Of a stretch of 20,151 nucleotides of DNA, positions 4,279 to 15,189 are shown in pieces. Position 1 is the stretch's first letter, and every line of letters begins with the position of its first letter. A program made the translations under genes and the position numbers. This stretch comes from a virus: positions 1 to 20,151 of the IMG/VR virus record IMGVR_UViG_3300042450_001323. One strand, 5' to 3'. A model generated the notes under the pieces. The model ran no database searches, was not told the origin of the DNA, and was given only the letters and a program-made list of their open reading frames with translations.

Positions 4279-4760
4279 TGAGTAAAAACACTCCACTTGT
4301 GCAACCAATTGATCCCTGGATTCAGAGATATGCGAATAAGCTTAAAAACATGATGGGTCTTTCTCATTGGACAATTCACATGAGTTCTAAGCCATGCAAT
4401 GTTGATGCTTTAGGTGAAACAGAAGTTATACATGCTCAGAATCTTGCAACAATTTATTTACATAAAGATTTTCGTAAAGATACGCCTGAAGATATTCGTG
4501 CAACGATGGTTCATGAACTTCTTCATTGTCACATGAGTCATATATCAGAAGTTGTTCATGAAATCCTTAAGCCAGAAGAAGATGATCAAAAAGGTAAAGC
4601 TATTCATAAAGCAACAATATCAGTTGTTGATTATGAAATTGAAAGAATCATTGATGCAATATCTGAGTCGCTTGGTAAATGGATGCCTACACCCGACATG
4701 CCAAGGGCAAAAACAACTAAGCCAAGAGTTGCTAAAAAAGCAGTAAGGAAGAAAAAATAA
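4278..4760 (+). CDS. HELLH zinc metalloprotease-like protein
   Basis: A 160-residue protein with a zincin motif: HELLH at residues 79-83 in ATMVHELLHCHMSH, with additional His at 85 and 88. This is the Zn-binding and catalytic glutamate arrangement of gluzincin/SprT-like proteins, often seen as small stand-alone proteins in phages. The N-terminal 60 residues resemble the beta-rich lead-in of such domains (WTIHMSS, then NLATIYLHKDF). The C-terminal 20 residues are a Lys/Arg tail (KPRVAKKAVRKKK), suggesting nucleic-acid contact. Substrate is unknown. Its start overlaps the previous stop by 1 nt, and its own stop directly abuts the methyltransferase ATG. Confidence 0.78.
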   Translation: MSKNTPLVQPIDPWIQRYANKLKNMMGLSHWTIHMSSKPCNVDALGETEVIHAQNLATIYLHKDFRKDTPEDIRATMVHELLHCHMSHISEVVHEILKPEEDDQKGKAIHKATISVVDYEIERIIDAISESLGKWMPTPDMPRAKTTKPRVAKKAVRKKK

Positions 4761-5600: not shown

Positions 5601-5676
5601 TGGCGAGTAGCTCAGTTGGCAGAGCAAGGGACTGTTAATCCCTGGGTCGTAGGTTCAAACCCTACCTCGCCAGCCA
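5601..5676 (+). tRNA. tRNA-Asn (anticodon GTT)
   Basis: A full cloverleaf can be drawn: acceptor TGGCGAG with CTCGCCA, D-arm GCTC/GAGC, anticodon arm AGGGA/TCCCT with loop CTGTTAA, and T-arm GTAGG/CCTAC with loop TTCAAAC. The discriminator is G and the CCA end is encoded (5674-5676). The anticodon GTT is at 5634-5636 and reads Asn AAC/AAU codons. The last A of CCA is also the A of the next gene's ATG. Confidence 0.95.
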
Positions 5677-8296: not shown

Positions 8297-8305
8297 TGAT
8301 ATATT
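8297..8305 (+). promoter_or_regulatory. extended -10 and structured leader for the 8441 gene
   Basis: TGATATATT fits an extended -10, with a predicted start near 8312. The implied 130-nt leader has an imperfect AAACCCCTTAT-type hairpin (8320-8343), GGTTGAG/CTCAACC (8401-8407 with 8415-8421) and CCCT/AGGG (8421-8424 with 8431-8434). The last holds the only Shine-Dalgarno-like AAGGG, so start-site access may be regulated. Confidence 0.4.
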
Positions 8306-8440
8306 ACCAAACAATTTCTAAACCCCTTATTCCATAAGGGTTTGCGAGAGTGTCAGTACTTGCTATGTCTGCCCTATGCCCTGTATCGTTTATTACATGA
8401 GGTTGAGCAACGGGCTCAACCCCTAGCGAAAGGGTCAGTA

Positions 8441-9809: not shown

Positions 9810-10238
9810 ATGGCACAGAAAAAACGCAAAGCCGATGCAACCAAAGTTGTTGCATTGGAAAAAAAACTTGTTGCAAAGTCGCAACGCAATTCCAAAGCTC
9901 AAGTCAAAAAGTTTTATACCGATAACGGTACAAAGATTTTGGCTGAAGCAATTGCTGTTGCAATGACATTGCCAACCATGCCTAAGGGTTTGGCAAGTGG
10001 TGAAGAAATGCGCCAGTGGTGCATTACCAATAATGCCCCATCGGTACAGCGAAACATTGTTTGCCGAAAAGCAACCAACTATCGTGCCGATAACGCAATG
10101 CGTCAGCGCTTGAAGTCATGGCAAAAAGAAAACATCGCCAGTGCAACGCTTGACATTGTTTGGGCATGCAACCACGCAACAGCATTGCGTGAACCATTTT
10201 CGGTACAAGCCGAAAAGGTGTTCATTGTCAAAATGTGA
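9810..10238 (+). CDS. basic protein of unknown function, gene rich in GTTGC/GCAAC
   Basis: A 142-residue protein with a strongly basic, helical N-terminus (MAQKKRKADATKVVALEKKL) that suggests nucleic-acid binding. The middle contains a possible helix-turn-helix-like stretch (GEEMRQWCITNNAPSVQRNI) and a Trp/Lys-rich helix (MRQRLKSWQKENI). No family is recognised. The coding sequence itself is dense in TTGCA, GTTGC and GCAAC, the same half-sites found in the flanking non-coding DNA of this cassette only. It has its own promoter and terminator. Confidence 0.75.
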   Translation: MAQKKRKADATKVVALEKKLVAKSQRNSKAQVKKFYTDNGTKILAEAIAVAMTLPTMPKGLASGEEMRQWCITNNAPSVQRNIVCRKATNYRADNAMRQRLKSWQKENIASATLDIVWACNHATALREPFSVQAEKVFIVKM

Positions 10239-10257: not shown

Positions 10258-10287
10258 GCGGGGGCAGAAATGCCCCCGCTTTTTTTT
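10258..10287 (+). terminator. rho-independent terminator
   Basis: GCGGGGGCA (10258-10266), loop GAAA, TGCCCCCGC (10271-10279), then eight T residues. It closes the 9810 gene. Confidence 0.92.
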
Positions 10288-10930: not shown

Positions 10931-11060
10931 TTGTAAAGTTACACGCATGTAAGTTTACAGGGCGGGTGTAAGTTTACATAAAGCTAAACTTACACCCGTT
11001 TTAAAATTACACACATGTAATAATACTTTAATATCTTTATGGGGATGTAATAATACAAGA
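10931..11060. repeat. cassette repeat C
   Basis: Contains GTAAAGTTAC and GTAAGTTTAC, then a perfect 14-bp inverted repeat CGGGTGTAAGTTTA (10963-10976) / TAAACTTACACCCG (10985-10998) with loop CATAAAGC. TATCTTTATG follows at 11032-11041. Same order of elements as copies B, D and E. The whole 10919-11173 gap has no gene. Confidence 0.85.
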
Positions 11061-11636: not shown

Positions 11637-11642
11637 AATTAC

Positions 11643-11735
11643 ATGAATGTAATAAAGATAATCTACGGGGTTGTAGTCCTTTGGTCATGGCTAATCTTAC
11701 CGATAGCGTTAGCGTGGTATATGGAACGAGACTAA
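11643..11735 (+). CDS. 30-residue membrane peptide
   Basis: MNVIKIIYGVVVLWSW and LILPIALAWYMERD form essentially one membrane helix with a charged end. The start is marked by TAAAATTACATG (11634-11645) like two neighbouring genes, which is the main reason to accept such a short ORF. Last gene of the three-gene cassette. Confidence 0.6.
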   Translation: MNVIKIIYGVVVLWSWLILPIALAWYMERD

Positions 11736-11789: not shown

Positions 11790-12188
11790 ATCCCCTCTAA
11801 AATTACACGCCCGTATTATTACACGGCGGGCGTAACTTTACATCAAGCTAAAGTTACGCCCGCTGTAATTTTACACACATGTAATAAAAGTTTAGTACCT
11901 TTATGTAATAATACAGGGCGAACCCTGAAAATTACCCAGATGTAATATAAGGCTATATCCTTTATGGAGGTCATGTAATAATAGAAGTTTTTCTAAACTT
12001 ACACCGAAAAATATATTTGTAACCAAATTGTAACAATAACCGTGATATATCTCATATGGGCATTGGGTTTGCGGGGTTTATTACATTCTCATTACCTTGC
12101 AATTCATATTTCTATCCATTACATTTATTCATGTCAAGGCAACAACGCCAAGACAACCGCTTAGGCGGTTTACACGCAAAGGCAAAAC
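11790..12188. repeat. gene-free spacer with cassette repeat D
   Basis: Perfect 15-bp inverted repeat GCGGGCGTAACTTTA (11826-11840) / TAAAGTTACGCCCGC (11849-11863), 8-nt loop CATCAAGC, then GTAATTTTAC and TACCTTTATG (11896-11905). An extended -10 (TGATATATC, 12043-12051) may start the next transcript; its leader has hairpin AACCGC/GCGGTT (12155-12160 with 12165-12170). No ORF. Confidence 0.8.
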
Positions 12189-12464
12189 ATGAAATTCCAA
12201 ATTATTGAAGAGACCGCACTGGAGTTTACTCCACGAGGTCGCAAATCAAATGTAGAACCTGAACTGGTTGAGGCACTCAAGACCTTGCCAAAGGGTAAGG
12301 CTGTAAAAATTACAGACATGAAACTGAACCCAAAGACCGACACATTCAAGACCGACAAGGCTCGTGTCTCCGCAACAATTCGTTCGGCAGGCAAGCAAGC
12401 CAAGGTCAATGTCAAGATTATGTGGGCAACTGATGGTACACCACAGGTAGTAGTTGCCAAGTAA
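12189..12464 (+). CDS. RGRKSN-family small protein, copy 1
   Basis: A 91-residue basic protein, one of three paralogues here. Shared signature: an E-x-LEF strand, an RGRKSN patch (residues 17-22), a helix ELVEALKTL, a GKAVKIT strand, and a C-terminal KARVSATIR helix then KIMWATDGTPQVVV. RGRK resembles the basic core of AT-hook-like minor-groove binders, so DNA binding is plausible, and the C-terminal helix with a beta hairpin could be a small winged fold. The family is otherwise unknown to me. AAAGG precedes ATG. It sits alone in its cassette, with its own terminator. Confidence 0.75.
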   Translation: MKFQIIEETALEFTPRGRKSNVEPELVEALKTLPKGKAVKITDMKLNPKTDTFKTDKARVSATIRSAGKQAKVNVKIMWATDGTPQVVVAK

Positions 12465-12537: not shown

Positions 12538-12670
12538 GTAATTTTACACGCCTGTATTATTACAGGCAGGTGTAACTTTACTTTCTGCTAAAGTTACACC
12601 TGCGGTAATATTACACGAATGTAATAAAACTTTAGTATCTTTATGGAATGTAATTTTACATACATGTAAC
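12538..12670. repeat. cassette repeat E
   Basis: Perfect 15-bp inverted repeat GCAGGTGTAACTTTA (12566-12580) / TAAAGTTACACCTGC (12589-12603), loop CTTTCTGC. GTAATTTTAC lies upstream, and GTAATATTAC (12605-12614) and TATCTTTATG (12636-12645) downstream. Relative to copy D both arms differ at matching positions. Further degenerate GTAACTTTA-type motifs run on to about 12750. Confidence 0.87.
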
Positions 12671-12822: not shown

Positions 12823-13018
12823 TAAGGTCATTAGTGCTGATTGACCCCAGCTGAGATCGCCAATAGGCGGGCTGTAAAATTACAGCCCTGCAATTTTGGT
12901 CTCAGTGTTCAGCCTAGAAGTTGCGGGAAGGGTAGGTGATGTACCTTCCATAAAATTACATCAAGGCTACTTTAGGCATAAGGTAGTTGTCACTTCTAAT
13001 CTTACACAGAGGTAAGTT
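12823..13018 (+). promoter_or_regulatory. promoter and long structured leader of the 13019 gene
   Basis: TAAGGT (12823-12828) in a TTACATGAAA context resembles the 11118 promoter. The leader can fold as a junction: CTGAGA/TCTCAG (12851-12856 with 12900-12905) enclosing GCC/GGC and the 20-nt palindrome GGGCTGTAAAATTACAGCCC (12869-12888). A further hairpin around GGAAGG/CCTTCC lies near 12928-12950. A good Shine-Dalgarno AGAGGTAAG precedes ATG 13019. A riboregulator or attenuator is possible. Confidence 0.45.
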
Positions 13019-13321
13019 ATGGCTGATAAGAAATATCAGATCATTGACGAAGCTGAGTTAGAGTTTGTACCGCGTGGGCGTAAGTCCAACACGGACACCG
13101 AGTTGGTAGACGCTATGCGTAAACTTACATCGGGCAAGGCTCTCTCGGTTACTTCTTTGCAAGTAGACATGAAACTCACTGCGGAAGTCGTGAAGTCCGA
13201 GAAGGCTCGCATTAGTGCGATGCTTCGGGCTTGTGCGAAACAAGCGGGGGTTACTATCTCAATTCGTTGGTCGCTCACGGGCGTACCGCAAATTGTCGTA
13301 GTGTCTACTTCTAAGAAGTAG
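13019..13321 (+). CDS. RGRKSN-family small protein, copy 2
   Basis: A 100-residue paralogue of the 12189 product. Aligned features: YQIIDEAELEFVPRGRKSN, helix ELVDAMRKL, GKALSVTSL strand, KARISAMLRACAKQAG helix, and IRWSLTGVPQIVVV. The C-terminus ends in a short STSKK tail. Between the GKA strand and the KAR helix it is a few residues longer than copy 1. The gene is bracketed by near-identical palindromes (12869-12888 and 13357-13374). GC content is higher than in the flanks. Function unknown; DNA binding suggested by the basic patch. Confidence 0.75.
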   Translation: MADKKYQIIDEAELEFVPRGRKSNTDTELVDAMRKLTSGKALSVTSLQVDMKLTAEVVKSEKARISAMLRACAKQAGVTISIRWSLTGVPQIVVVSTSKK

Positions 13322-13374: not shown

Positions 13375-13385
13375 TCGTAACAGAA

Positions 13386-13474
13386 GGGGACTAGCTGGGC
13401 ATAATATTCCAGCTCTGTAACAATAGGCATATTGTTCCAGGGTTGTCTGAATAACCCCAGCTAGTCCCCATAAT
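13386..13474. repeat. 14-bp inverted repeat enclosing three hairpins
   Basis: GGGGACTAGCTGGG (13386-13399) and CCCAGCTAGTCCCC (13456-13469) are perfect arms. Inside are AACAATA/TATTGTT with loop GGCA, GGGTT/AACCC, and a competing GCTGG/CCAGC. ATAATTTTT follows the right arm, so it could also terminate the 13019 transcript. The cloverleaf-like form is unusual. Confidence 0.7.
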
Positions 13475-13489
13475 TTTTATTACATCTCC

Positions 13490-14509: not shown

Positions 14510-14660
14510 CTTACGCCTTTGTAAAATTACAGACCCCTAATATTACATAGGCTATTGTTCCAGTCGTGTAACATTACAGGCGTGTAATTTTAGAACGGGA
14601 GGGTGTAATATTACTTTTATGTAATATTACACCCTCGTAATATTACACATAACCTTTATC
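14510..14660. repeat. cassette repeat G with nested palindromes
   Basis: GAGGGTGTAATATTAC (14599-14614) and GTAATATTACACCCTC (14621-14636) form a perfect 16-bp inverted repeat with a 6-nt loop; each arm itself contains the palindrome GTAATATTAC, and a third copy follows at 14637-14646. GTAAAATTAC and GTAACATTAC lie to the left, ACCTTTATC to the right. No gene in 14497-14844. Confidence 0.85.
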
Positions 14661-14844: not shown

Positions 14845-15189
14845 TTATTTCTTAGCCTTAGGCTTATCTATTCCGAAACGAATTGCTGGAACAGTTTCCT
14901 TATGCCAACGGATTTCTGAAGAATAACCCAAACGCTTAGCCAAACCCCGAAGCATTGCCGAAGTTGTAGCCTTATAGTTTTTCTTATCCTTTTCATCAGT
15001 TAGATCCGAAGGAATTGCCAATTCTGAAAGTGTAAGAAATTTCTTACCTTCAACCATTTTGTTAGCAATAATCGTATTCTTAATCTCATTCACAAATTCA
15101 TCTGAAAGATTAGATTTACGACCACGCTGAACAAATTCTAAATCATTTTCTTCAATGATTTCAAATTTCATTTTTTTATTCTCTGACAT
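14845..15189 (-). CDS. RGRKSN-family small protein, copy 3 (opposite strand)
   Basis: A 114-residue paralogue of the 12189 and 13019 products. The common parts are KFEIIEENDLEFVQRGRKSN, helix DEFVNEIKN, GKKFLTLSEL, then TTSAMLRGLAKRLG and SEIRWHKETVPAIRF. It is longer because of an insert of about 15 residues between the first helix and the GKK strand. It is the only one on the minus strand, and is AT-rich like its neighbours, so the paralogues have diverged in composition. ATG 15189 is used here; ATG 15171 would align with the start of copy 1. It carries its own terminator. Confidence 0.78.
   Translation of the reverse strand: MSENKKMKFEIIEENDLEFVQRGRKSNLSDEFVNEIKNTIIANKMVEGKKFLTLSELAIPSDLTDEKDKKNYKATTSAMLRGLAKRLGYSSEIRWHKETVPAIRFGIDKPKAKK

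Follow-up and report, generated by a model that had tools for sequence, protein, structure and literature searches.

The gene at positions 13019 to 13321 (plus strand) of a 20,151-base IMG/VR virus record, a linear fragment referred to here in its entirety as the window, encodes a 100-aa basic protein with an RGRKS motif and is flanked by two conserved RNA structures: a leader immediately upstream and a long hairpin, the 3′ element, directly downstream. We consider it fairly probable that the mRNA of this gene folds at its 3′ end into the 3′ element, in which a terminator or protector stem carries a recognition core, and that this element forms one controlled unit with the leader. At the level of sequence, the structures, their covariation, their orthologous position, and their joint presence or absence are established by comparison with related viruses, and post-transcriptional control of the 13019-13321 gene is the most likely mechanism.

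A perfect inverted repeat folds into a single rod

The first-pass annotation of this region described a 14-bp inverted repeat enclosing a multi-hairpin, cloverleaf-like element. The repeat itself was readily verified: its plus-strand arms, GGGGACTAGCTGGG (13386 to 13399) and CCCAGCTAGTCCCC (13456 to 13469, defined by sequence and alignment), pair at 14 of 14 positions and flank 56 nt (13400 to 13455). Dinucleotide-shuffled windows contain on average 0.005 perfect inverted repeats of at least 14 bp within 100 nt, and nine overlapping start pairs at five loci, one of which is the 3′ element, were observed in the window. The 89-nt stretch has a predicted RNA minimum free energy of -49.7 kcal/mol (z score, -9.1) and a DNA folding energy of -24.3 (z score, -6.9), and the RNA fold of the 3′ element is better on the sense strand than on the antisense strand (-49.5 versus -42.3).

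The cloverleaf-like geometry did not hold up, since the minimum-energy and conserved folds both correspond to a single rod of 84 nt and 35 pairs. From the outside inward, this rod comprises the 14-bp outer stem, a 5-by-2 internal loop (CAUAA/AC), a 5-bp UAUUC/GAAUA helix (13405 to 13409 with 13449 to 13453), a 3-nt UCU bulge (13446 to 13448), an 8-bp helix (13410 to 13417 with 13438 to 13445), a U-C mismatch, and an apical hairpin (13419 to 13436) in which a 7-bp stem is capped by a GGCA loop. The apical stem is the AACAATA/TATTGTT pairing that had been proposed earlier; it was confirmed at 13419 to 13425 with 13430 to 13436 and is supported in relatives. The other two inner pairings are not: GGGTT/AACCC is broken by GGCTT in relative L005, GGCTG in L006, and GCGTT in L009, while the alternative GCTGG/CCAGC stem is disrupted in L005 and L009. 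Downstream of the rod, the tail ATAATTTTTATT (13470 to 13486, plus strand) includes the short T tract noted previously (TTTTT, 13474 to 13478), which would serve a presumed intrinsic terminator as its U tract. In the window, AUAAUUUUUAUU follows the 14-bp stem, and the U tract is offset by 4 nt in the window, L005, and L006.

Three other folds were considered and rejected. ARAGORN reported only a tRNA-Asn (5601 to 5676), and the 3′ element folds as a rod, so a tRNA-like cloverleaf was discarded. Pairing of the GGCA loop with a downstream UUGUC to form a pseudoknot would require a loop of 1 to 3 nt to span 7 to 9 bp, and the UUG is already paired within the rod. A K-turn was dismissed because the bulge is not faced by tandem G-A.

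The stem of the 3′ element is replaced while its core is kept

A protein-guided search of IMG/VR for the 13019-13321 gene recovered L005, L006, L007, L008, L009, and L010 and then L023 and L024. The 3′ element lies directly 3′ of the 13019-type gene in four of these relatives (L005, L006, L009, and L010). A covariance model (R1) detected a single full copy per record in all five element-bearing records, on the sense strand and with E values of <1e-27, including the two records that are 106 to 109 kb in length; far weaker antisense matches at these positions arise from the palindromic arms.

In the five-sequence alignment, 95.4% of the cells of the 35-pair rod are paired. Compensatory changes in related genomes, which the first-pass annotation had named as a check, were indeed found: double changes affect 11 of the 35 pairs, including 9 of the 14 outer-stem pairs, with the five sequences representing effectively three lineages (the window, L005, and L006 are close, and L009 and L010 are near identical), such that these changes are not independent events. 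The covariation score of the rod was 0.383, compared to 0.152 for shuffled alignments and ≤0.154 when the structure was slid along the alignment. Conserved pairs include G-U, the apical stem shows a change from A-U to G-C, and the stem of L006 contains one A-C mismatch. The five TATTC/GAATA pairs are invariant and thus provide no evidence either way on their pairing.

The inner part of the element is conserved according to both its identity and its pair counts in relatives. The outer stem of L009 and L010 (CCCCAGCAAGCGGG/CCCGCTTGTTGGGG) is only 18 to 27% identical to the window arms, yet all 14 of its positions are paired. In contrast, the core (13397 to 13457) is 90% identical between the window and L009/L010, unpaired bases included, relative to 54% for the gene, 59 to 61% for the leader, and 43 to 46% for the downstream flank. 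The near-invariant inner part reads GGGCAUAAUAUUCCAG...UGUAACARUAGGCAUAYUG...UGUCUGAAUAACCC. Given that the arms have diverged but remain paired while the core has barely changed, selection preserves the stem as a shape and the core as a sequence.

Additional homologues were not found when IMG/VR was scanned with the arms, a core pattern, a 16-mer of the core, and a leader pattern, since these scans returned only the five known records, and their other matches were attributed to chance by inspection or model score. A scan of GTDB genomes yielded seven chance matches, all of which lack the stem, and a phage collection contained no match for the region or for the two paralogues tried.

The 3′ element occupies the terminator slot of the gene

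The other genes of the array end at 10238, 10870, 11734, and 12464 and are followed ~20 to 26 nt later by ordinary terminator-like hairpins at 10258, 10891, 11756, and 12490, respectively; repeats and a "simple stem" come next. Downstream of the 13019 gene, no hairpin other than the 3′ element has a U tract. L007 and L008, whose orthologues lack the element, carry by eye ordinary G+C-rich inverted repeats in the same slot. The first-pass annotation placed the element at the position that a simpler stem takes in copies B to E. However, a simple stem (GGGTGTAA...TTACACCC) lies downstream of the 3′ element in L006, L009, and L010. Since both are present in these records, the 3′ element occupies the slot that ordinary terminators fill after other genes rather than taking the place of the simple stem. 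Simple stems with 14- to 16-bp arms are located between genes of the window at 10963 to 11000, 11826 to 11863, 12566 to 12603, and 14599 to 14636, and the copies differ by matched changes (GGGTGTAAGTTTA, GGGCGTAACTTTA, and GGTGTAATATTAC plus their complements).

The U tract is kept in relatives and is stronger in L009 (AUAUUUUUUU) and L010 (AUAUUUUUUUU). A stable GC-rich hairpin followed by a U-rich tract is present in the window, L009, and L010. Based on these sequence features, the 3′ element likely functions as an intrinsic terminator or 3′-end stabilizer, with transcription predicted to terminate at the U tract. Among the functions suggested at the outset, a terminator and a structured RNA are thus both supported and are mutually compatible, the former by the position after the gene, the GC-rich stem base, and the U tract and the latter by the compensatory changes in orthologues.

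A pseudoknotted leader accompanies the 3′ element

The leader upstream of the 13019 gene (12836 to 13018) is likewise conserved and folded on the plus strand. Hairpin A (12836 to 12913), which was identified from the alignment, the consensus fold, and compensatory changes, consists of a closing stem (GCUGA/UCAGC), an inner stem (CUGAGA/UCUCAG), and an apical palindrome (TGTAAAATTACA), and its asymmetric internal loop (UUGACCCCAG/UGU) is invariant across relatives. It is followed by an H-type pseudoknot (12931 to 12963) composed of S1 (12931 to 12936 with 12944 to 12949), S2 (12937 to 12943 with 12957 to 12963), and an A-rich loop (12950 to 12956); 100% of its cells are paired, and each stem contains two double changes. 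Hairpin C (12965 to 12991), whose loop is UAGGCAUA, contains four double-change pairs. Together, the pseudoknot and hairpin C are paired in 108 of 108 cells, with eight double-change pairs.

The UAGGCAUA loop is common to hairpin C and the apical hairpin of the 3′ element. Because the models of the two elements match each other's UAGGCAUA hairpin weakly (E values, 0.13 to 0.96), a common origin or ligand of these hairpins is only suggested. Five records (G000, G001, G002, G005, and G006) contain both the leader and the 3′ element, and four (G003, G004, G007, and G008) contain neither. Preceding the genes at 8438, 12189, and 13019, a GTGATATAT(C) motif that is possibly a promoter or operator element recurs at 8298, 12041, and 12751; relatives carry it as well.

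Gene family and genomic context

The 13019-13321 gene has two paralogues in the window, at 12189 to 12464 (plus strand) and 14845 to 15189 (minus strand). The RGRKS motif is invariant in all three, and the trio is maintained in L005 to L010. Searches of Pfam, PHROG, and PDB gave nothing above chance for this family, and the modeled 100-aa protein (pLDDT, 79) lacks both a fold match and any known RNA-binding domain.

The virus is probably an actinobacterial phage, with its host being uncertain: one window protein and the capsid maturation protease of Actinomycetia phage DSL-LC01 have a stretch in common, and other window proteins resemble cyanophage proteins. The palindrome GTAAnnTTAC occurs at 33 sites between 9470 and 15467 of the window (0.47 expected); these sites are nearly all intergenic within one ~6-kb gene cluster and are often 16 bp apart. 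The matching cluster is also where the palindrome is concentrated in the 106- to 109-kb relatives. L023 and L024 (records G007 and G008) contain zero or one copy of GTAAnnTTAC and instead carry CTAACGTTAG at matching intergenic positions (35 and 28 copies, respectively), as if the specificity of a repeated operator had been switched together with its binding protein. Exchange of small gene cassettes flanked by similar repeats also seems to occur: at the place where another short gene stands in the window (11637 to 11734), L005 carries an additional paralogue of the 10631-type gene (4370 to 4627).

DISCUSSION

Our analyses point to a division of labor within the 3′ element. The freely replaceable outer stem, together with the U tract, would act as an intrinsic terminator and 3′-end protector, and the near-invariant inner core would serve as a sequence-specific recognition site. 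The leader, whose hairpin A, H-type pseudoknot, and UAGGCAUA hairpin C lie just 5′ of the ribosome-binding site, would control translation and form a single unit with the 3′ element. A protein or other factor recognizing both the leader and the 3′ core could then set the translation and/or lifetime of the message and thereby affect expression. This factor is perhaps the gene's own small basic protein, which would result in autogenous control, but because the 100-aa protein lacks a family or fold match, we put autogenous binding forward as a proposal only.

Could the 3′ element simply be an intrinsic terminator whose hairpin happens to be unusually long and whose inner sequence is functionless? 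Its location after the gene, GC-rich stem base, and U tract are consistent with this explanation, as is the finding that ordinary terminators fill the same slot after other genes and in relatives. However, a functionless loop would be expected to drift fastest, whereas the core, unpaired bases included, has retained 90% identity compared to 54% for the gene and 18 to 27% for the arms. We therefore regard a terminator-only function as unlikely, and the invariant core goes beyond the needs of a terminator alone, with recognition as its putative role. Alternatively, the element could be a self-standing noncoding RNA or a 3′-UTR-derived small RNA that acts in trans, with the terminator end being the 3′ end of the RNA. 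It is compact, stable, conserved, and single copy per genome, it ends in a U tract, and a consensus scan found a promoter-like match at 13377 to 13405. Nevertheless, promoter-like matches are not enriched (21 versus 24.4 in shuffles), and the co-occurrence of the element with the leader of the same gene suggests that it acts in cis, which makes a trans-acting RNA decidedly unlikely.

More improbable still is a role in replication or recombination as a DNA hairpin or cruciform, for instance as an origin, as a site resembling attC, or as the boundary of a cassette. Although the long perfect palindromic arms fold as DNA too (z score, -6.9), and the region is rich in repeated palindromes with gene cassettes that vary between relatives, the conserved bases are strand specific, G-U is among the conserved pairs, and the sense strand folds better. 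Moreover, the element is present once per 106- to 109-kb record, always directly 3′ of one gene, and its core is absent from the other intergenic palindromes. These observations argue against the recombination or replication function raised in the first-pass annotation. The least credible explanation is a single ribozyme or intron-like RNA that is split between the leader and the 3′ rod and carries the open reading frame in a loop. The joint presence or absence of the two parts would fit this arrangement, and in the window and close relatives, GUUGCGGGAAGGG in the leader and GGGGACUAG in the arm are reminiscent of group I core elements. However, the resembling bases are not retained in L009 and L010, Rfam gives no group I or II catalytic-core match even with lax filters and thresholds, and no conserved pairing between the leader and the 3′ element was seen by eye.

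Within post-transcriptional control of the 13019-13321 gene, our preferred mechanism, a more ambitious and quite doubtful extension is that the pseudoknotted leader and the 3′ rod, with their shared UAGGCAUA hairpin, form the opposite ends of a single new RNA regulatory system and are sensed jointly. For example, a factor binding both ends could loop the mRNA and control translation and decay together; if true, this would be a phage counterpart of end-to-end mRNA communication.

Rfam 15 contains no family that matches the element or the leader above the gathering cutoff in the window or its relatives. The two elements are a new RNA family of a known general kind, namely, structured phage untranslated regions and terminators, and the combination of a replaceable stem, a frozen core, and a paired pseudoknotted leader is unusual. 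A terminator-like hairpin in which the stem is exchanged freely but the core is frozen, coupled to a pseudoknotted leader on one small phage mRNA, would add an RNA family not yet described to phages of uncultured hosts and offer a compact system for studying two-ended message control of one among several paralogous DNA-binding-like proteins. The 3′ element resembles intrinsic (Rho-independent) terminators in its GC-rich stem base, U tract, and position directly after a gene, and it resembles the simple terminators of neighboring genes in the slot that it occupies. Unlike intrinsic terminators, it is an 84-nt rod with a partly unpaired conserved core, and its stem sequence is replaced while the core is kept. 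The leader shares a compact 5′-untranslated-region pseudoknot and an A-rich loop with riboswitch-type leaders that have an H-type pseudoknot and an A-rich third loop, for example those of the preQ1 classes, but differs from them in having no Rfam match and a 3′ element as a partner, and its gene encodes no recognizable metabolic enzyme or transporter. The T4 gene 32 protein binds a pseudoknot in its own leader and represses its own translation (PMC535899). Like the T4 operator, the 13019 leader carries an H-type pseudoknot 5′ of the ribosome-binding site, and its gene is also a phage gene for a small, putatively nucleic-acid-binding-like protein. The T4 protein is a single-stranded-DNA-binding protein; a corresponding role for the 100-aa protein, which matches nothing in Pfam, PHROG, or PDB, is conjectural. 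The 13019 unit differs from the T4 operator in its longer leader, its two further hairpins, and its second conserved element at the 3′ end.
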